A DNA stretch of 64,000 nucleotides from Mycoplasmatota bacterium (GTDB taxonomy: Bacteria > Bacillota_I > Bacilli_A > Haloplasmatales > Haloplasmataceae), in contig CP074573.1 of NCBI GenBank assembly GCA_018394295.1, positions 1,681,156 to 1,745,155 of the forward strand. Reading direction: 5' to 3'. A model generated the notes under the pieces. It had not been told where the DNA came from, searched no databases, and was given only the letters and a program-made list of their open reading frames with translations. This document shows, one piece after another, positions 1,604-40,202 of this stretch (position 1 is the first letter of the stretch; each line of letters begins with the position of its first letter). The position numbers were made by a program, and so were the translations under genes.

Positions 1604-3328
1604 GAGGCTGCTGAAAAAGTCTCATCAAATTATGAATTGGGAAGAGTATATTAATTATTCTTCCTTTTTTCATATAAATACAACGAAAAGAAAGTGAAAA
1701 ATGATATAATGAAGGTAGAAAATAATTTGAAATTGGTGATAGTATGCTACCTAATAAAGAACTTGTCTTAAGTCCATACAGTAAGTTGTATGATATTGTG
1801 GTTCCAAAGAATCATATATTAAGAAAATTTAAAGAATTAGTGGATTTTGAATTTGTTTATGAAGAATTAAAAGATAAATATACAAAGGATAATGGAGCGA
1901 CAGCGAAATGTCCTATTTTTATGTTTAAATTATTATTATTAAAAGTAATGTATCCAATGTCTGACCGAGATTTAGTTGAGCAAGCACAATTAAATATGGC
2001 ATATAAGTATTTTTTAGAAATAGCTCCAGAAGAAACAGATATTATCCATCCAACAAGTTTAACAAAGTTTAGAAAGTTACGATTAAAAGATGGAGAATTA
2101 TTAGATAAACTAATTTCAAAAACAGTAGAGCTAGCACTAAACTTAGGATTAATAAAATCAAAACAAATAATAGTAGACTCAACACATACAAATAGTATGT
2201 TTAATTATAAATCACCACTTGAAATCTTAGAAGAGAAATCAAAAAATTTACGAAAAGTAGTATATAAGACTGATGAAAGTTATAAAGATAAGATGCCTGA
2301 AAAGCCAATATCAAAGAATATAGACGATCATATAAAATACTGTAATGAATTAGTTGAATTAATTAGAAATGATGAAAATTTACTAATCAGAGAAAATATT
2401 AGATTAAAAACAAACTTATTAGAAGAAATAGTAAATGATAATATTGAAGAAATAAATTCAATGGTAGAAAAGGATGCAAAAGTAGGACATAAATCAGCTG
2501 ATACATCATTCTTTGGATATAAAACACATATCGCGATGGTGCCAGAACGAATTATCACAGCGGCAGTTGTGACAAGTGGAGATAAACACGATGGAAAGCA
2601 AGCAAGAGAATTATATGTGAAATCAAAAGAAAATGGAATTGAAGTTGATGCTTTTATAGGGGATGGAGCGTATTCAGAAAAAGAACTAATAGAATATGCG
2701 AAAAAAAATGAATTTAAATTAGTTTCAAAATTGAGTAAAACAGTATCTAAAGGAAATAAAAGAAAATGTGAGGATTTTGAATATAATAAAGATGCGAAAA
2801 GATATGTATGTAAAGCAGGTCATATGGGAGTTAGAGTTGCACTACATGGTAAAAAGAAACATGAGATAGAAGGAACTCCATTGCGAGAAACGCATTATTT
2901 TGATGTAGAAAAATGTAAAACGTGTCCATTTAAAGAAGAATGTGGATATAAAGAAGGACAAGATAGTAGATCTTATACAGTTACATTAAAGAAGGATAAT
3001 GTTCATGCAGAACATGAAAAATTTCAAGAAAGTAAAGAATTCAAAGAATTAGCAAAAGAAAGGTATAAGATAGAAGCTAAAAATTCTGAATTGAAAAATA
3101 GTCATGGATATAAAAGATGTCAATCCCATGGCCTTTTAGGTATGCAGATACAATCAGCAATGACAATATTCGCAGTAAACTTGAAAAGAATTGTAACACT
3201 AATGGGATAGAATATATCTCATTCTTTAATAGAAACAATAAAAAAGTTAGAAAATGAAGTTAAATCATTTCTAACTTTTTTTATTTAATATTAGTTATCT
3301 GAAAATAGACTAGATTTTCAGCACCCTC
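1604..3328 (+). mobile_element. IS1182-family insertion sequence, intact copy A (1725 bp)
   Basis: Bounded by 8-bp target duplications GAAAATTC (1596-1603 and 3329-3336). Terminal inverted repeats are GAGGCTGCTGAAAA on the left and GAGGGTGCTGAAAA (reverse complement of the right end). Inside the left end a hairpin followed by a T run (about 1639-1671) would stop read-in transcription, and another hairpin with T run (about 3244-3282) follows the transposase gene. Removing the element restores a hairpin downstream of ileS (AAAGAGG...CCTCTTT followed by eight T on the minus strand), so the element sits in the presumed ileS terminator. It is almost identical to the copy at 31018-32741. Confidence 0.9.
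1744..3210 (+). CDS. IS1182-family transposase (intact)
   Basis: 488 residues, the usual size for this DDE family. The N-terminal part (FEFVYEELKDKYTKDNGATAKCPIFMFKLLLLKVMYPMSDRDL...) is the DUF772-like domain. The DDE catalytic region includes IIVDSTHTN, HKSADTSFFGYKTHIA and AFIGDGAYSEKE, followed by a cysteine cluster (CKTCPFKEECGY) and the C-terminal ERYKIEAKNSELKNSHGYKR. Catalyses cut-and-paste or copy movement of the element. The frame passes unbroken through an A8 run at about 2700-2707, the place where the second copy has lost one A. Confidence 0.95.
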   Translation: MLPNKELVLSPYSKLYDIVVPKNHILRKFKELVDFEFVYEELKDKYTKDNGATAKCPIFMFKLLLLKVMYPMSDRDLVEQAQLNMAYKYFLEIAPEETDIIHPTSLTKFRKLRLKDGELLDKLISKTVELALNLGLIKSKQIIVDSTHTNSMFNYKSPLEILEEKSKNLRKVVYKTDESYKDKMPEKPISKNIDDHIKYCNELVELIRNDENLLIRENIRLKTNLLEEIVNDNIEEINSMVEKDAKVGHKSADTSFFGYKTHIAMVPERIITAAVVTSGDKHDGKQARELYVKSKENGIEVDAFIGDGAYSEKELIEYAKKNEFKLVSKLSKTVSKGNKRKCEDFEYNKDAKRYVCKAGHMGVRVALHGKKKHEIEGTPLRETHYFDVEKCKTCPFKEECGYKEGQDSRSYTVTLKKDNVHAEHEKFQESKEFKELAKERYKIEAKNSELKNSHGYKRCQSHGLLGMQIQSAMTIFAVNLKRIVTLMG

Positions 3329-3374
3329 GAAAATTCCATCAATTTTAATGAAATCATCCCTCTTTCTAAATTAA

Positions 3375-6107
3375 TTATTCACTTATAACAGATTGGCAAC
3401 GTTCGCATAATTCATTTTCATTGATATGACTAACCACTTGCCAACATCTTGCACAAGTATGTCCTTCTGCATTTTCAACAAGTACTGCCATCTGTTCAAA
3501 CTTTAAGGCATTTTCAGGTGCTTTATCATATTCACTCATTTCAAATTGAGATACAATAAAGATTTGTTGGAGGTTTGCATCTAAACTATCTAAGAAAGTT
3601 TTTACTTCTTGATTTGGATATAAGGTTAACTTCGCATTAAATGATTTTCCAATAATCTTTTGATTTCTTGCCTCTTCTAATGCTTTTAAAACATCATCAC
3701 GTAAAGCTAAGAAATGTTCATATTTAACTTTTATTGTTTCGCTATCTGCATAATTTGATACCTCTGGCATATCAGCTAAATGAACGAATTCTTCTTGATG
3801 TAACTGTTCATATACTTCATCAGCTGTATGTGGAATAATCGGTGCTAATAAACGAGCTAAACGACTACAATTTTCATATAATACTGTTTGAATCGCTCTT
3901 CTATCCGCTGAATTTGCTTTTTCAATGTATAAAACATCTTTTGTAAAATCTAGATAGAAAGATGATAAGAATTGTGTAATATAATTATTCACTAAACGAT
4001 AAACATCATCAAAAGCAAATGTATCATAAGCAGCCTTCACTTCACTAGTTAATTCATCTAACTTAACTAATACGAAACGATCAATTTCTTTCATATCTTG
4101 ATAGTTAATTGAATCTTCACTAACATTAAAATCAGAGATATTTCCTAATAAGAAACGGAATGTATTTCTAATCTTACGATATGATTCACTCACTTGTTTC
4201 ATTAAATTATTAGAAATACGTACATCAGATTGGTAATCAACTGATGAAACCCACAAACGTAAAATATCCGTACCTGATTGATTGATAACTTTCAATGGAT
4301 CAATTACATTTCCTAAAGACTTACTCATTTTACGACCTTCTCCATCTAACACAAAACCATGTGTCACAACGTTTTTATAAGGTGCTTTATTAGTCATTGC
4401 AACGCCAGTTGATAAAGATGAATTAAACCAACCACGGTATTGGTCTGAACCTTCTAAATAAAGGTCAGCAGGATAAGGCAATCCTCTTTCTATTAAAACT
4501 GAATGATGGCTGCTTCCTGAATCAAACCAAACATCCATGATATCTGTTTCTTTACGGAATTTATTATTTGGACTTCCTTTATGGGTAAAACCTTTTGGTA
4601 ATAGGTCTTTTGCTTCCCAATCAAACCAAACATTAGATCCATGTTCTTTAAATAATTTAGAGATATGTAAGATGACTTCTTCATTTAAGATTTCTTCACC
4701 ATTTTCAGCATAAAACACTGGAATTGGGATTCCCCAAAGACGTTGACGAGAAATACACCAATCTTTACGGTCTTTAATCATATTACCTAAACGAGTATCA
4801 CCCCATTTAGGATACCAATTAACTTCATTAATCTCTTTTAACATCCTATCTTTTAACGCTTCAATTGATGCAAACCATTGTGGGGTTACTCGGAAAATAA
4901 TAGGTTTTTTGGTACGCCAATCATGTGGGTACGAGTGCGTTATAAATGTTAATTTTAATAAGGCTCCTTTTTCCTCTAACATTTGTGTAACTTCTTTATT
5001 AGCCTTATCAACATGTAATCCTTCAAAATAAATCGTATCTTTTGTTAATTTACCTTTTTCATCAGCAATACATAATGGTTCAAGATTATAAACTTTCCCA
5101 ATATTAAAATCATCTTCCCCATGACCAGGAGCTGTATGTACGCATCCTGTCGCTTCCGCAGTAACATGTTCCCCTAGTACAACTAAAGAGGTTCTATCAT
5201 ATAAAGGATGTTTACAGGTAATATATTCTAATTTTTCACCTTTTAGAGTTTTTAAAACTTCTACCTCTTGCCAATTAAGTTCTTCTGTTAATTTAGAAAC
5301 AAGTTCACTAGCAACAACATATTTTGCTTTTTCTGTTTTAACAACTGAATAATCTAATTCTGGATGCACTGAAATGGCTAGATTTCCAGGAATAGTCCAT
5401 GGTGTTGTTGTCCAAATAACGAACTTTTCATCTCCATCTAAGACATCTTTACTATCAACTACATCAAACGCTACAAAAATTGATGGTGATTTTTTGTCGT
5501 GATACTCAATCTCTGCTTCAGCTAGAGCTGATTCACTAGACCATGACCAATAAACTGGTCGAACACCCTTATAAATTAGTCCACGAGACACCATTTTCGC
5601 AAACACTTGTAGTTGCATCGCTTCATATTCTTTTTGATAAGTAATATATGGATTTTCCCAATCACCAATAACACCTAAGCGTTTAAATTGTTCTTTTTGA
5701 TTGGCAACTTGTTTTTCAGCATATTCATGACATTTTTGTCGATACTCAGTAGGCGCTAATTTTTTTCTGTCTACCCCTTTTTTAGCAAGGGCTGTTTCAA
5801 TTGGTAGTCCATGTGTATCCCAGCCTGGGATATAAGGTGATTTAAACCCATTCATATTTTTATATCGAATCACGAAATCTTTTAATATTTTATTTAAAGC
5901 ATGACCAATATGAATATTACCATTAGCATAAGGTGGACCATCATGAAGTAAATAGTAAGGTTTATTTTCATTTTTCTTCATAATCTGTTTATATAAATTC
6001 ATTTCTTCCCATTTTTTCTGAATTTGAGGTTCTTTTCTCGGTAAATTTCCTCTCATTTCAAATGTTGTTTTAGGCATCAATAAAGTATTTTTATAATCTT
6101 TATTCAT
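3375..6107 (-). CDS. ileS: Isoleucyl-tRNA synthetase
   Basis: 910 residues, normal for the bacterial enzyme. Charges tRNA-Ile and edits misactivated valine. HIGH is seen as GNIHIGH near residues 63-69, KMSKS in [10 protein letters not shown], the editing-domain threonine-rich block [10 protein letters not shown], and a C-terminal zinc site CARCWQ...CERC. The gene is preceded by a T-box leader with its own consensus promoter, so it is controlled by uncharged tRNA-Ile. It follows the division gene cluster, as in Bacillus. The natural terminator appears to be interrupted by the IS element ending at 3328. Confidence 0.98.
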
Positions 6108-6137: not shown

Positions 6138-6382
6138 AATCGCCCTCGTAAAGGACGATTATAACCGTGGTACCACCTTATTTTGTATATATGAATATAC
6201 CTTATCACCTTAACGCGGTAAACGTCATACTTACTTATCATGTTCAGTATGCAGCTCGTGGGTGATTTTCTTTTTTAGGCTTATATAAGGCTTTCACCAT
6301 CCCTTACTCGCTTTAATAAGTTTCTAAAAAATATGTCCCAGTCATCACTATTTTTCACACTTATTTTTTATTACATTAATCT
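6138..6382 (-). promoter_or_regulatory. T-box leader of ileS (isoleucine specific)
   Basis: On the minus strand the leader carries the conserved T-box sequence GGTGGTACCACGG (6165-6177), followed by a terminator hairpin ATCGTCC...GGGCGAT with a T run (about 6133-6160). Upstream lie the Stem I elements, including GGATGGTGAAAGCC. The specifier triplet is read as ATC (6264-6266) in the context GAAAATCACC, matching isoleucine. Uncharged tRNA-Ile is expected to pair with the T-box and prevent termination. Confidence 0.93.
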
Positions 6383-22569: not shown

Positions 22570-22966
22570 ATATATAGTATTCATGTAAGCCATGTTCTGT
22601 ACCTTTGTACTATAACGGATGCCTCCTCGTACTCCGGCGGTAATCATTTATCTACAGAAATCTGTCTCTTGTTTAAGTTCATTTTCTCAACAAAAGTTCC
22701 CCTACCAAATTTGGGTTTCTCGCTCGTGGGGTTTACCATCGTTCCACACTAAAAATTTCTTTTTAGTTTCGTCACTGTGGCACTTTTATAGGTAATTCTA
22801 CCATGCTTTGTAAAAAAGTTTAGGTAGTTTCCCAGCCGTAAGCAAAGTAAATTGCTTCCCTAACTTATTGTTTCATTAGGCACGATCACTACAAGCATCG
22901 CAGCTTGTGCGAGCATGGACTTTCCTCATTAAAGTAAAACTTCAATGCGATTACCCGAATACTACA
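22570..22966 (-). ncRNA. rnpB: RNase P RNA, B type
   Basis: About 395 nt. Conserved core pieces are read on the minus strand: GAGGAAAGTCCATGCTCGC near the 5' end (CR-I), ACAGAAA (CR-V side), and GGCTTACATGAATACT at the 3' end. The two ends pair as helix P1 (AGTATTC / GAATACT). It is the catalytic RNA that trims tRNA 5' leaders. Bounded by a clear promoter and terminator. Exact ends are estimated to within a few bases. Confidence 0.95.
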
Positions 22967-34394: not shown

Positions 34395-34694
34395 TTAAAT
34401 TGTTTTAATTCCAAGTTTTCTTGCTTCATCAGCAAGTATTTGATAAAGTTTATTATTGTTATCTTCAAGTTCATTAACTACCTCAATTTCTTCAACACCT
34501 ATATTATATAAGTAAAAAAGACGATGATGGCCATCTACTGAAAATATTAAATTATCATATTTTATTACATATATATCACCATATGAATCATGCGCTTCAA
34601 AAGATTTTATGACTTTATTTAATTTAGTTTGTGATAAAAAATGTTGCTGTGGAATAATATCCTTTATTTTTATGTTAAACCTATCACATTTCAT
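34395..34694 (-). CDS. Small ParB/Srx-fold protein
   Basis: 99 residues. The core IKIKDIIPQQHFLSQTKLNKVIKSFE...IFSVDGHHRLFYLYNIGVEEIEVV matches the N-terminal ParB/sulfiredoxin-like nucleotide-binding fold, with GHHR in place of the usual GxxR-type motif (the GERR box of ParB). No DNA-binding domain follows, so it is not a partition protein. Last gene behind the ABC-F and GNAT genes; 39 bp separates it from the GNAT gene. Activity unknown. Confidence 0.7.
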   Translation of the reverse strand: MKCDRFNIKIKDIIPQQHFLSQTKLNKVIKSFEAHDSYGDIYVIKYDNLIFSVDGHHRLFYLYNIGVEEIEVVNELEDNNNKLYQILADEARKLGIKTI

Positions 34695-34733: not shown

Positions 34734-35510
34734 CTACTTGTTTTCGCTATCATCAGATTTAAAAACTGCTTCTGCTTCATTTTTATCTATTACAAAACCA
34801 ACTTTTTCATATAAATGAATCGCACTATGATTTTCTCTACTCACCCATAAAAAGCACTTTTTACATCCTTCATTTTTCGCTTGTAATAATGCTTTTTTTA
34901 GTAATTGTTGACCCAATTTCATTCCTTGGTATTCTTTAGCTATACCGATATTTCTAATAAAACACTGATTGGTTTTAATGTCATGAATAATAATAAAACC
35001 AATAAGTTTACCTTTATCTTTAATCGTTAAAATCAGATGATTGTTATCTTCTACCCACTCATTAAATTCAGTAATAGATGCATTAAATAAATCAAATATT
35101 TCTTTATCTAAAACCATTAACTCATCTATTTCATTGGATTTTAAACAGTATGTTTCAAAATCGTTATTAACATCATTTTTAAAGTGATTAAAATCTAAAA
35201 GATAACCTACATGCATATTTTTATAATAATAACCCCAGGAAGTAATCCTATCAATTTCTTTTAATAGTTCATCATAATTTTTCCCGTATCGAAATAGAAA
35301 ATGATTATAATCTTTTTTAATTACATCTAATCCTTTTCTTAAATCCTCAATTTCATTTACTGCCCAAAATACTTCTTTATTACCATTATCTTCTCCAACC
35401 ACAAATATTCCATCATCTGTCTCATAATATTTAACAATCTCTCCTAAATCTCCAAAGAAGAATTGTTCTTTAAACTCCATTGCTCTTTTTCTAATACTAT
35501 TTATCTCCAT
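34734..35510 (-). CDS. GNAT-family N-acetyltransferase
   Basis: 258 residues. The C-terminal half is a GNAT domain: FIIIHDIKTNQCFIRNIGIAKEYQGMKLGQQLLKKAL (motif A with the acetyl-CoA loop QGMKLG), then CKKCFLWVSRENHSAIHLYEKVGF (motif B). The first about 120 residues form a separate domain I do not recognise. It is 17 bp after the ABC-F gene and so probably co-expressed with it. Substrate unknown; an antibiotic or a ribosomal/peptide amine are open possibilities. Confidence 0.85.
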   Translation of the reverse strand: MEINSIRKRAMEFKEQFFFGDLGEIVKYYETDDGIFVVGEDNGNKEVFWAVNEIEDLRKGLDVIKKDYNHFLFRYGKNYDELLKEIDRITSWGYYYKNMHVGYLLDFNHFKNDVNNDFETYCLKSNEIDELMVLDKEIFDLFNASITEFNEWVEDNNHLILTIKDKGKLIGFIIIHDIKTNQCFIRNIGIAKEYQGMKLGQQLLKKALLQAKNEGCKKCFLWVSRENHSAIHLYEKVGFVIDKNEAEAVFKSDDSENK

Positions 35511-35527: not shown

Positions 35528-37228
35528 TTATTTTAATAATTCTTTTTTCTTATTAATTAAATCTTTAAATTCTTGATCAAGTTGAAAATACATTTGATCT
35601 GTTTCTTTATATTTACTAAGTTCACCTAAAATATAAGTAATTCTATTTTGAATAATCATTAATTCATAGGCTTTTTGATCTTTTGTTACTTTCTTTTCTC
35701 TATCCTTATAAGCTTTATATCCACATTCAATTCTTATTATCTTTTCATCCTCAAATATTAATAATTTATCTGTTATTTTTTCTAACAAGTAACGATCATG
35801 TGATGCAATTAACATTGTTCCTGTATAAGCATCAAGTGTTTCTTCTAACCTTTCACGACTGTGTAAATCAAGGTGATTTGTCGGTTCATCTAAAATTAAT
35901 ACATTATTTTCTTGTAAAATAAGAAAAACTAATTTAATTCTTGTTCGTTCTCCTAAACTTAAGGAACTAATTTTCTGGCGAATCATTTTTGAGGTAATTC
36001 CACTTGAAGCTAGCATTGTCCTAATCTTAGTTTGATATGTTTTATCCTTATGTTTAATAATCTCTTCAACACTTTTACTATCATCTAAGTCTAAGACATC
36101 TTGGCTTAAATAAGCGATTTTAGCACTATCTGATACCCAAAGTTCACCTTTATCAGCTTGAACTTGACGAAGAATCATTTTTATTAACGTTGTTTTCCCA
36201 CATCCATTAATTCCAATCAAACCTACCTTTTCTCCTCTTTTGATATAAAAATCACTATCTTTAAATAATGTTTTATCAAAAAATGATTTACTTAAGTTTT
36301 TTGCGGTCAATAACCCTTTACCTGCTTTTGATTCAGATACAAATTCAAACAACACTTTACTCTCTTCTTTAGGTTTTTCTATCCCCTCTTCTTTCAACTT
36401 TTCTAATCGTTTAATCGCAGATTTAATTTGAATATCTTTCTTTTTAACTTTCATTCTCCAATATTCTTTAAATCCTTCCTTTTTTGTTGAGTCACGATGA
36501 CCAATATGTGACCATTTTTTTAAACGATTAATTTCCTCATCAATATGTCTTTCTCTTTTCTTATGTTCCTTATATTGATGAAGTTGATTGAGATAATTGT
36601 CCTCTTTTGTTTTTCGATATTGTGAGTAATTACCATGGTATGTCCTCACAACTCCATCTTCTAATTCAACAATTTCATCGGTAACTTGATCTAAAAAGAA
36701 ACGGTCATGTGAAATAATCAGTAAAGCTTTAGAACATTTTTTAATTTCTTCAATAAGCCAATCTATCCCCATATAATCAAGATGATTAGTTGGTTCATCC
36801 AAAATTAATAAATCACTATTTTCATTAAAAACTTCAGCAAGGGATATTTTTGTTTTTTCTCCTCCACTTAAATTATTTATTCTTTCATACGACCATTGAT
36901 TCAATTTCTTTAACCCTAATAAGCTACTTGTCTCAAATACTTGACCTAAATCTTTATTTTTATCTAACAACATTTGACTGAAATTATTATCATTAAACTC
37001 TGTAGATTGTTTTAAATAGCCTACTTTGATTTTTTGACTATAACACTCAATAGAACCACTATCATATGTTTCAATTCCCGATATGATTTTAGCAAGTGTT
37101 GTTTTACCTGCTCCATTTAATCCTACAAGTCCTAATATAGAATCTTTTTTTATATCAAAATTAACATCTTTTAATACTTCATTTAATCCATAATCTTTTT
37201 TTATATTTCTAATTCTCATTAATAGCAT
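35528..37228 (-). CDS. ABC-F ATPase, probable antibiotic-resistance ribosome protection factor
   Basis: 566 residues with two ABC domains and no membrane segment. First: Walker A GLNGAGKTT, signature LSGGEKTK, Walker B LLILDEPTNHLD. Second: GINGCGKTT, LSLGERTR, VLILDEPTNHLD. A long charged linker (residues about 185-285, RERHIDEEINRLKKWSHIGHRDS...) fits the P-site tRNA interaction motif of Vga/Lsa/Msr-like proteins, which displace antibiotics from the ribosome. Start ATG 37228 (MLLMRIRN) is chosen because AAGGAGG sits 6 bp upstream; ATG 37249 would overlap that site. The leader shows an attenuator of the kind used by resistance ABC-F genes. Confidence 0.88.
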   Translation of the reverse strand: MLLMRIRNIKKDYGLNEVLKDVNFDIKKDSILGLVGLNGAGKTTLAKIISGIETYDSGSIECYSQKIKVGYLKQSTEFNDNNFSQMLLDKNKDLGQVFETSSLLGLKKLNQWSYERINNLSGGEKTKISLAEVFNENSDLLILDEPTNHLDYMGIDWLIEEIKKCSKALLIISHDRFFLDQVTDEIVELEDGVVRTYHGNYSQYRKTKEDNYLNQLHQYKEHKKRERHIDEEINRLKKWSHIGHRDSTKKEGFKEYWRMKVKKKDIQIKSAIKRLEKLKEEGIEKPKEESKVLFEFVSESKAGKGLLTAKNLSKSFFDKTLFKDSDFYIKRGEKVGLIGINGCGKTTLIKMILRQVQADKGELWVSDSAKIAYLSQDVLDLDDSKSVEEIIKHKDKTYQTKIRTMLASSGITSKMIRQKISSLSLGERTRIKLVFLILQENNVLILDEPTNHLDLHSRERLEETLDAYTGTMLIASHDRYLLEKITDKLLIFEDEKIIRIECGYKAYKDREKKVTKDQKAYELMIIQNRITYILGELSKYKETDQMYFQLDQEFKDLINKKKELLK

Positions 37229-37253: not shown

Positions 37254-37271
37254 CTAACGTAATATAATCAT
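37254..37271 (-). CDS. Five-codon mini-ORF in the ABC-F leader
   Basis: Reads M-I-I-L-R-stop, with a strong AAGGAGG (37279-37285) 7 bp before the ATG. It lies after the leader terminator and 25 bp before the ABC-F start. Tiny ORFs with good ribosome sites in resistance leaders can stall or queue ribosomes. No direct evidence for that here. Confidence 0.45.
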   Translation of the reverse strand: MIILR

Positions 37272-37289
37272 ATTTGAACCTCCTTAAAT

Positions 37290-37319
37290 AAAAAAAAACT
37301 CCTCACAAAATGAGAAGTT
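37290..37319 (-). terminator. Leader terminator (attenuator) of the ABC-F operon
   Basis: AACTTCTCA-tttt-GTGAGGAGTT with one mismatch, followed by T9 on the minus strand, between the leader peptide and the ABC-F gene. Its left arm ACTTCT can instead pair with AGAAGTTT inside the leader ORF. Confidence 0.85.
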
Positions 37320-37345
37320 ATTTATCGATTATTTTATAGTATTGC

Positions 37346-37435
37346 CTATAAAACACAATTTGAAAAACTTCTAATTATTTGCGAATAAGATTTTTCTATT
37401 AAATTCGTTAACTTAATTTTAATTACAGAGATCAT
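37346..37435 (-). CDS. Leader peptide of the ABC-F operon (29 aa)
   Basis: ATG 37435 to TAG 37346, reading MISVIKIKLTN...FSNCVL, with AAAGGA upstream. It lies between a consensus promoter and the terminator. Part of the ORF (AGAAGTTT, near 37367-37374) can pair either with AAACTTCT at the RNA 5' end (near 37453-37460) or with the left arm of the terminator, giving a switch that ribosome stalling could throw. The peptide itself matches nothing I recognise. Confidence 0.6.
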   Translation of the reverse strand: MISVIKIKLTNLIEKSYSQIIRSFSNCVL

Positions 37436-37468
37436 ATTCACACATCCTTTCTAGAAGTTTCCTTTATA

Positions 37469-37497
37469 ATTATATTAGTTTATTCAATATATGTCAA
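37469..37497 (-). promoter_or_regulatory. Promoter of the ABC-F operon
   Basis: TTGACA (37492-37497), 17-bp spacer, TATAAT (37469-37474): a perfect consensus sigma-A-type promoter, so regulation must lie mostly after initiation. Confidence 0.9.
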
Positions 37498-38253: not shown

Positions 38254-38994
38254 TTAATATTTAACGACTTCTTTTACTCCATCTTTACCAATAATATTAT
38301 AAGTTTCATGATATTCAACTAAATCAATCTCACAATTAGGTCCTATTGTAATTTTATTTCCTCTAACAGCTTTGGATACCACATTTTCTAAATAGATATC
38401 GTCTCCTTCAATGGTTTCAATTTCTACTTTTTTGCTTGTATTATGTCCCCCGCTATTATTTGATACAATCACAATATTTTTGAAAAAACTAAACGGCTTT
38501 TTTTTCTGTGGTTTTACCAAAATATGTGTCCCAACCATTTCCTTTATTGTTGAACCATGGTTCGTAGTAATTTCAATCTTTTCACCATTTAATTGTTCTG
38601 TACATTCTACAAGACCATTAATATATATTTCATCAGCTTCTAAATTACTTACAGTCGCTTCACCATAGACTTTTACTTCTTTACATCTGAAGACATTTTT
38701 ATTAAATTCAACTGCACCATAAATCTTCAAATAATTAACTTTTACATCATTATTAAATTCACAAGCACCTTTAATATTTAGATTCTCGACTTCAACATAT
38801 TCAAAAAATTCACAAGCACCATATAATTTTAGGTCTTCAATTTTACATTTTCCTTTATATTCAACAGCACCATAAACCTTCATACTTTGAGCAGTTAAAT
38901 CACCTAATACATTGGCAGAACCAAATACTCTTACCTTATCATAGGATCCCCCATTAATTGTCGAATCCGCGAAAACCGTTAAATTATTACTCAC
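38254..38994 (-). CDS. Bactofilin-like polymer-forming protein (246 aa)
   Basis: The first about 145 residues are a right-handed beta-helix pattern of short strands: VFADSTINGGSYDKVRVFGSANVLGDLTAQSMKVYGAVEYKG..., with the recurring step xxVYGAxEFxx. A proline/lysine/phenylalanine insert follows, then a last beta segment (VSKAVRGNKITIGPNCEIDLVEYHETYNI). Similar to YhbF/BacF, bactofilins that form filaments and help flagellum assembly in B. subtilis. Third gene of a tight operon with YhbD and a second bactofilin. Confidence 0.82.
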   Translation of the reverse strand: MSNNLTVFADSTINGGSYDKVRVFGSANVLGDLTAQSMKVYGAVEYKGKCKIEDLKLYGACEFFEYVEVENLNIKGACEFNNDVKVNYLKIYGAVEFNKNVFRCKEVKVYGEATVSNLEADEIYINGLVECTEQLNGEKIEITTNHGSTIKEMVGTHILVKPQKKKPFSFFKNIVIVSNNSGGHNTSKKVEIETIEGDDIYLENVVSKAVRGNKITIGPNCEIDLVEYHETYNIIGKDGVKEVVKY

Positions 38995-39004
38995 TGTATC
39001 CCTC

Positions 39005-39604
39005 CTAAACCATCACAAGTAGTTTAATATTATCAATTAAATTTTTCAGATTCACTTTTAGAATCTCATCTAAATTATATTCTATATTATTGGTTTCTTT
39101 AACTAAAATTGATGTTAATTTATCATCTTTAGTCATAATGTATATTTCTTTGTAGTCATTGATAATCTCTTTTGAATGTTTACAAATGAATTGATAAAAT
39201 TCTTTTATTTCATTTCGGTTATTAACAACATGATATATATTATCCATAAGTTTTAGAATAACGATATCATTAAACGAGATAGTTTCATCTGTATATAGAT
39301 TTAATACTTCATGATTAAAGAATAAATTATTATTTTTCAACTCTTCAACTAAAATATCTTTTGATTTTTGTTTACTATTTATAATTTCACTTAACTCTTC
39401 TAATGACACATCATCTTTTAATTCTAAAATTTTATCAATTCTATCTAAAATCAGATCTTTAGGAAAATAGGTTTCTTGTCCAGTAAAACTCGCTCTTTTA
39501 ATAAACCATTCTTCCGGAATAAGTCCTTTTCGTTTCCAGCGATACAATTGTCCATATGAAATACCAGTTAAAATCAATAAATCCTTTTTTGAAATCTCTT
39601 CCAT
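39005..39604 (-). CDS. yhbD: YhbD-family (DUF4004) protein with MerR-like HTH
   Basis: 199 residues. The N-terminal 50 residues are helix-turn-helix-like: ISKKDLLILTGISYGQLYRWKRKGLIPEEWFIKR, then GQETYFPKDLILDRI, resembling MerR-type DNA-binding domains. The rest is helical and acidic. YhbD accompanies bactofilin genes yhbE/yhbF in Bacillus. Here it stands between the two bactofilin genes with gaps of 10 bp on each side. It may control or bind the bactofilins. Confidence 0.82.
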   Translation of the reverse strand: MEEISKKDLLILTGISYGQLYRWKRKGLIPEEWFIKRASFTGQETYFPKDLILDRIDKILELKDDVSLEELSEIINSKQKSKDILVEELKNNNLFFNHEVLNLYTDETISFNDIVILKLMDNIYHVVNNRNEIKEFYQFICKHSKEIINDYKEIYIMTKDDKLTSILVKETNNIEYNLDEILKVNLKNLIDNIKLLVMV

Positions 39605-39614
39605 AAAATCACCT

Positions 39615-40202
39615 CTATACTGCTTTTTGCGATTTTTTTACTGTAGCATTTGGATCGATGTCTAAACTTGTAATGTAGGTTATATTATCTACTTTACATC
39701 CTACTCCAATTTTTACTTTATCACCAGATATTGTATGACATTTCACATTTTCAATATTTATCTCATCGGCTGAAATTGTATTTGCTTTTAAATGATGTCG
39801 CTTTCTTCTAGTTGTAACTTCAACACTACTGCCCTCAATGTTTGTTACTGAACCATTTCCACATAATTCCATAATAAAGGTATCACAGTTAATATTTTCT
39901 TTAACATTAAATCCTCCAGAGATATCAATTTTCTCTCCACTAATTGATCTTGCTTTAATCAATCCATCGATATCCATTGATTTCACATTAATATCTCCAC
40001 CAACTTTTATCATTCCTTCAACATCAATAGATTCAACGTTAACATCACCAGCTATTCTTACCATTCCCTCACAAGTTAAATCACTTGCTTTTATATCTCC
40101 ACTGACTCTAAACATCCCCTCAACTTTTACTTCATCACACTCTAAATTTCCTGAACTTTTCGACATTCCACTTACACGAACAATCCTTTTTTCTTCACTC
40201 AA
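39615..40202 (-). CDS. Bactofilin (195 aa)
   Basis: Regular repeats of about 15 residues typical of a beta-helix: GMSKSSGNLECDEVKVEGMFRVSGDIKASDLTCEGMVRIAGDVNVESIDVEGMIKVGGDINVKSMDIDG. The C-terminal part (NIEGSSVEVTTRR...ISGDKVKIGVGCKVDNITYI) matches the end of the second bactofilin. Like YhbE/BacE. Soluble, presumed membrane-associated filament. First gene of the operon; AGAGGTG-like site before the ATG. Confidence 0.85.
   Translation of the reverse strand: MSEEKRIVRVSGMSKSSGNLECDEVKVEGMFRVSGDIKASDLTCEGMVRIAGDVNVESIDVEGMIKVGGDINVKSMDIDGLIKARSISGEKIDISGGFNVKENINCDTFIMELCGNGSVTNIEGSSVEVTTRRKRHHLKANTISADEINIENVKCHTISGDKVKIGVGCKVDNITYITSLDIDPNATVKKSQKAV

Follow-up and report, generated by a model that had tools for sequence, protein, structure and literature searches.

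A putative ribosome-controlled transcription attenuator ahead of a VmlR-like ABC-F gene in the Haloplasma lineage

The ABC-F gene and its leader

The window, that is the whole stretch of 64,000 nucleotides that was analysed, carries on its minus strand a gene for an ABC-F protein, preceded by a promoter, two short open reading frames (uORF1 and uORF2) and a set of alternative RNA helices. The features are as follows; "leaders" refers to that of the window and those of the two relatives introduced below.

37469..37497 (−), sigma-70-type promoter: TTGACA at 37497-37492, 17-nt spacer, TATAAT at 37474-37469; 12/12 consensus positions
37460-37453 (−), 5′ arm AAACTTCT
37451..37458 (−), 5′ strand of the SL-1 outer helix, ACUUCUAG, part of the 5′ arm AAACTTCT; all 8 pairs in 3/3 leaders
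37431..37450 (−), conserved block: uORF1 Shine-Dalgarno AAAGGA at 37450-37445, GUGUGAA at 37443-37437, start AUGAU
37346..37435 (−), uORF1, 29 codons, MISVIKIKLTNLIEKSYSQIIRSFSNCVL; start kept, peptide not kept between genera
37379..37391 (−), 3′ strand of the SL-1 inner helix; pairs with GUGUGAA and, in the window and the third leader (L031), also with AUGAU
37365..37374 (−), switch arm UUAGAAGUUU: 3′ strand of the SL-1 outer helix (anti-antiterminator) or 5′ strand of the antiterminator
37331..37354 (−), SL-2, central hairpin within the antiterminator; folds in 3/3 leaders
37290..37319 (−), intrinsic terminator AACUUCUCA-UUUU-GUGAGGAGUU with U-tract; stem at 37319-37297, then nine T
37254..37285 (−), uORF2, MIILR, 5 codons; Shine-Dalgarno AAGGAGG at 37285-37279, ORF at 37271-37254
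35528..37228 (−), VmlR/VmlR2-like ARE-ABCF gene, 566 aa; NCBIfam ribo_prot_ABC_F above cut-off
34734..35510 (−), GNAT acetyltransferase gene after a 17-nt gap; Acetyltransf_1

What kind of ABC-F protein is encoded here? The product has two ABC domains and falls into the ribosomal-protection family (NCBIfam NF000355, 460 bits against a cut-off of 380). Its nearest solved structures are VmlR2 (8buu, E 1.6e-156) and VmlR (6ha8, E 4.4e-109), and its drug-contact loop, STKKEGFKEY, is identical in Bacillus subtilis VmlR. Judged by its sequence, the protein is a putative intrinsic antibiotic-resistance ARE-ABCF of the VmlR/VmlR2 kind. Protection by VmlR and VmlR2 covers pleuromutilins, lincosamides, streptogramin A and nucleosides; for VmlR2, macrolide resistance was not detectable (PMC10201436). 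Macrolides, which the initial annotation counted among the possible inducers, are unlikely in this role because the drug-contact loop is VmlR-like.

The ABC-F and acetyltransferase genes probably belong to one operon. After the acetyltransferase gene comes a 99-aa ORF (34395-34694, minus strand) with a DGHHR motif and no match in Pfam or NCBIfam. At 38254-40202 (minus strand), two polymer-forming ORFs, bactofilin-like by eye, flank a helix-turn-helix-like ORF; two of these three are found in the same order at the leader locus of the closer relative (L032). Between the bactofilin-like and cyclase genes, a terminator-like hairpin (38248-38228) overlaps a promoter-like site (38239-38210, 11/12), both on the minus strand. 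A search of the window with Rfam gave nothing above the gathering score at the leader; elsewhere it detected only a T-box leader (6148-6354, minus strand; RF00230, 125.8 bits) and a class B RNase P RNA (22581-22962, minus strand; RF00011, 304.7 bits).

On re-reading the minus strand, the promoter, 5′ arm, 29-codon ORF, terminator and 5-codon ORF with AAGGAGG that had initially been described were all found in their places. The RNA is predicted to start at about 37462, as placed from the promoter, and its 5′ region reads AAACUUCU, followed by the Shine-Dalgarno AAAGGA and uORF1. The octamer AGAAGTTT lies inside uORF1 at 37372-37365, and the switch arm, AGAAGUUU, is near the end of this ORF. The terminator has AACTTCT as its left arm, and a second AAGGAGG precedes the ABC-F ATG at 37228. 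The repetition of the octamer AAACTTCT was rejected as a signal, its count in the window (8) being close to expectation (6.0).

Conservation and structure of the leader

Does the leader accompany the gene in other genomes? A close ABC-F homologue was found in only three of the genomes searched: the window's own, a Haloplasma MAG that is its genus-mate and by which it is judged Haloplasma-like (Haloplasma contractile B5_bin.1, JAENYC010000001.1; leader locus L032; 68% ABC-F identity to the window), and G003, from another genus of the same family (third leader, L031; 60%). Class and phylum genome samples yielded no further homologue at the cut-offs used, and a scan of genome contigs returned only the same Haloplasma MAG and distant ABC proteins. 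The MAG shares the neighbouring cyclase and bactofilin-like genes with the window. In G003 the flanking genes differ; thus, the leader has stayed with the ABC-F gene and not with the neighbourhood. L032 contains two ABC-F genes in tandem (2495-4198 and 4203-5948) with almost identical second halves and different first halves, the result of either gene conversion or a MAG assembly artefact.

Conservation had been set beforehand as a check, and the two relatives keep the uORF start and all of the arms. The promoter, with identical hexamers and 17-nt spacing, the 28-nt block ACTTYTAGAAAGGANGTGTGAANATGAT, SL-1, SL-2, the AACUUCUCA terminator and uORF2 are present in all three leaders, and in each the distance from the uORF1 ATG to the AGRAGT arm is exactly 61 nt. 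With up to 3 mismatches allowed, the block has exactly one match in each of the three genomes; the leader is single-copy in each and always stands ahead of this ABC-F gene. Searched with a covariance model of SL-1, each of the three gene-carrying genomes gave a match at this locus alone (E 3e-16 to 3e-17), and no other convincing match was obtained across eight family genomes, everything else having E > 0.7. The shared block was not found by reading the leaders of related ABC-F genes on two large Bacillales replicons (L046 and L047). The second of these, the leader of a Lysinibacillus plasmid ABC-F gene (1190-1465), contains GAAGGGACGATGGGTGGCTAATGAATAACTAA followed by a terminator-like hairpin with a T-run, possibly another short-uORF attenuator.

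The 28 nt of primary sequence conserved in SL-1 would suit a small-molecule riboswitch or a protein-bound leader in which the ORFs are incidental. However, no Rfam family matches above threshold, the most conserved sequence is a Shine-Dalgarno with its start codon, and both relatives retain the uORF start. A leader of this type is the least probable of the explanations considered here.

SL-1 comprises two helices. The outer one (ACUUCUAG with UUAGAAGU) is the 5′ pairing of the initial annotation; the inner one, also conserved, had been missed there. Its 5′ strand is GUGUGAA (37443-37437), which pairs with the stretch immediately preceding the AGRAGT switch arm. Across the three leaders the outer helix is paired in 24/24 cells, with three substitutions that all keep pairing, and the seven core pairs of the inner helix in 20/21. 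Overall, SL-1 pairs hold in 90% of cells, as opposed to 30-57% when the partner is slid by 1-3 columns. Covariation support for SL-1 is weak because these three leaders contain no double-sided changes; the support comes from constant spacing and from pairing through an otherwise diverging stretch. SL-2 forms in every leader despite differing sequence and length.

Could this be an ordinary terminator with chance complementarity and no regulation? The leader is AT-rich, and an antiterminator helix alone is common in shuffled sequences (43/300 for the window, 186/300 for the MAG). By contrast, an equally good pair of alternative helices arose in 2/300 shuffles of the window leader and 6/300 of the Haloplasma MAG leader; in the third leader the test carries no weight, since an alternative site was better than the arm by 0.2 kcal/mol. 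The window leader folds 4.8 standard deviations below dinucleotide shuffles (z-score -4.8; 0/200 as good), and its parts are kept across genera. The arrangement of the leader is more than chance, and an unregulated terminator is a highly improbable account of it.

Switching and the role of the two uORFs

The arms and the folds of the three leaders agree that the anti-antiterminator, antiterminator and intrinsic terminator helices are mutually exclusive, which bears out the earlier suggestion that one leader arm pairs alternately with the 5′ arm or with the terminator arm. At the level of sequence, the leader possesses the parts of an attenuator, conserved and mutually exclusive. The predicted antiterminator does pair with the left arm of the terminator, as had been proposed, and in the window it also reaches into the right arm: with a start-codon ribosome whose footprint edge is at -18 or further, it joins AGAAGUU to AACUUCU and UUCGCAAA to UUUUGUGAG.

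It is probable that the ABC-F gene is governed by a ribosome-controlled transcription attenuator of the vmlR type, for which we infer the drug class, the stall site and the read-through. In the absence of drug, SL-1, SL-2 and the terminator would form and RNA polymerase would stop. A freely translating ribosome would, late in uORF1, pass or cover the switch arm, blocking the antiterminator and leaving the system off. If formation of the first peptide bonds were inhibited by a drug (pleuromutilin, lincosamide or streptogramin A, perhaps a nucleoside), the ribosome would freeze at uORF1 codons 1-4, and SL-1 could not form. The freed switch strand would then pair with the left arm of the terminator, and in the window with the right arm too, allowing read-through into uORF2, the ABC-F gene and the acetyltransferase gene. 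Attenuation by amino-acid starvation was set aside, as the downstream genes are not biosynthetic.

How far do folding models reproduce such a switch? The ribosome-free RNA folds into SL-1 and the terminator, with a terminator probability of 0.97-1.00 in the three leaders (0.97 in the window). A modelled ribosome on uORF1 codons 1-4 of the window lowers this value from 0.97 to 0.53-0.61, and a start-codon ribosome with its footprint edge at -18 or further gives 0.00-0.02; because the 5′ arm sits at the margin of the footprint of an initiating ribosome, the outcome varies with the assumed edge (-14/-16 versus -18 or more). In the window the terminator probability falls only with the ribosome at codons 1-5 and, less markedly, at codon 13; at codons 6-12 and 14-30 it remains at 0.91 or above, and a ribosome covering the switch arm abolishes the antiterminator too. 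The initial proposal that only an early-stalled ribosome favours read-through is supported as a prediction of these models. When a start-codon ribosome is combined with a terminator whose right arm is half transcribed, each of the three leaders is predicted to fold into the antiterminator. Even with a stalled ribosome, though, both relatives favour the completed terminator over the antiterminator at equilibrium; on this modelling, either their decision is a kinetic one or the folding model is incomplete. Within the models, the window switches clearly if the ribosome footprint reaches -18 or beyond, whereas the relatives switch only transiently, before the terminator is complete; this equilibrium behaviour of the relatives is the weakest part of the attenuator model.

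Which feature of uORF1 would sense the drug? AAAGGA and AUG lie within SL-1 in all three leaders. Met-Ile starts both uORFs in each of them, and Ile is second in 2/31 of the longer Shine-Dalgarno-bearing ORFs of the window; the six Met-Ile cases are not independent, as the leaders are homologous and the second codon of uORF1 also lies within a helix. For vmlR, whose uORF is Met-Ile-Asn, sensing occurs through start-codon stalling, and changes of the second codon are tolerated (PMC9226507). The uORF1 length is 29 codons in the window and the Haloplasma MAG and 21 in the third leader. After Met-Ile, the peptides show no likeness between genera beyond that of shuffles (p 0.33-0.39). Those of the window and the MAG are closer than shuffles (6/27 identical, p 0.006), as expected from recent common descent together with the constraint of the RNA arms, which leaves some room for a role of the peptide.

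The same attenuator might instead be triggered by a specific arrest sequence in the 29-codon peptide, of the macrolide or phenicol type exemplified by MsrDL. The equal length and likeness of the window and MAG peptides would fit this idea, and msrD is indeed under peptide-specific arrest (PMC10314930). However, no arrest peptide conserved in the manner of MsrDL and the Erm leaders was found in the three leaders: the third peptide is dissimilar as well as shorter, and the C-terminal residues that are shared coincide with RNA arms. Moreover, the ABC-F protein has the VmlR-type drug-contact loop, and modelled stalls at codons 6-12 leave termination undiminished. A peptide-specific trigger is therefore unlikely. 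Of the leader peptide that the initial annotation did not recognise, the start is kept; the peptide itself is an improbable sensor. Because it varies between genera and in length, and because the vmlR uORF is read by start-codon stalling, the sensor is likely to be initiation or the first peptide bonds at the uORF1 start. The sequences suggest that the parts that count are the RNA arms and the point where uORF1 begins, rather than any dedicated arrest peptide.

The 5-codon ORF after the terminator is present as annotated; its role is amended to that of a conserved second uORF. It lies 18, 18 and 23 nt after the U-tract in the three leaders, begins with MII, MII and MIY, has 5, 7 and 9 codons and a strong Shine-Dalgarno in each, and ends 12, 12 and 8 nt ahead of the ABC-F Shine-Dalgarno. 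Its conserved place, Shine-Dalgarno and Met-Ile start would be in keeping with mainly translational control, in which the ABC-F Shine-Dalgarno is masked by uORF2 or a hairpin and is released by a ribosome stalled on uORF2; a translational layer is known for cplR (PMC10201436) and vmlR (PMC9226507). By contrast, the ABC-F Shine-Dalgarno already has a predicted accessibility of 0.58-0.84 without a ribosome, with no rise when one is placed at the uORF2 start, and clear uORF2-controlled hiding was not found on folding the RNA 3′ of the terminator. Such control would also leave SL-1 and the terminator arms unexplained, and as the main mechanism it is quite unlikely.

Under transcription attenuation through uORF1, the candidate roles of uORF2 are coupling, a second sensor and mRNA stabilisation. 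It is tempting to speculate about a two-sensor cascade, although this is a doubtful possibility: successive Met-Ile uORFs flanking the terminator might both be read by start-codon stalling, uORF1 gating transcription and uORF2 translation or mRNA stability, and the length of uORF1 might let a moving ribosome mask the antiterminator strand.

Relation to known attenuators

An attenuator at this place is not surprising in principle. The one proposed here would add the Haloplasma lineage, placed between Firmicutes and Mollicutes, to the groups in which drug-responsive attenuators control resistance ABC-F genes, and suggests that sensing by a stall at a uORF start recurs with unrelated leader sequences. 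It would also be a natural case of a long uORF shaped by RNA arms instead of by its peptide.

The B. subtilis vmlR leader, like that of cplR an experimental precedent, also has a uORF that begins with Met-Ile and sits in the 5′ anti-antiterminator hairpin; a second, central hairpin forms the apex of its antiterminator, and its intrinsic terminator is followed by a VmlR-like ARE-ABCF (PMC9226507). The vmlR uORF has 3 codons, whereas uORF1 has 21-29, with the switch arm inside it or at its end; the conserved second uORF after the terminator is another difference, and the 28-nt block appears peculiar to the present leaders, the vmlR leader being compared by its published description (PMC9226507). 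The cplR leader of Clostridioides difficile similarly combines a short uORF in a 5′ hairpin, a terminator and an ARE-ABCF, and its transcriptional and translational layers act jointly (PMC10201436). It differs in its uORF, Met-Arg-Ile, and in that the cplR Shine-Dalgarno is sequestered by the terminator (PMC10201436), whereas the ABC-F Shine-Dalgarno here lies well past the terminator, behind uORF2.

A long leader ORF is found in the lincomycin-induced bmrB leader of the B. subtilis bmrCD operon, where the coding sequence of a 53-aa peptide likewise includes parts of the anti-antiterminator and the antiterminator (PMC4191407). In that leader the ORF also encloses the terminator, and the gene product under control is an efflux transporter (PMC4191407); here the terminator is beyond uORF1. 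The msrD leader also places a leader ORF (MsrDL, MYLIFM) and an intrinsic terminator ahead of an ARE-ABCF, in an operon with two leader peptides, mefAL and msrDL, but it relies on a macrolide-specific arrest peptide (PMC10314930), and the peptide here is not kept between genera. Thus, the leader described here is probably a lineage-specific variant of the vmlR/cplR kind, with a sequence of its own and an extra conserved mini-ORF.
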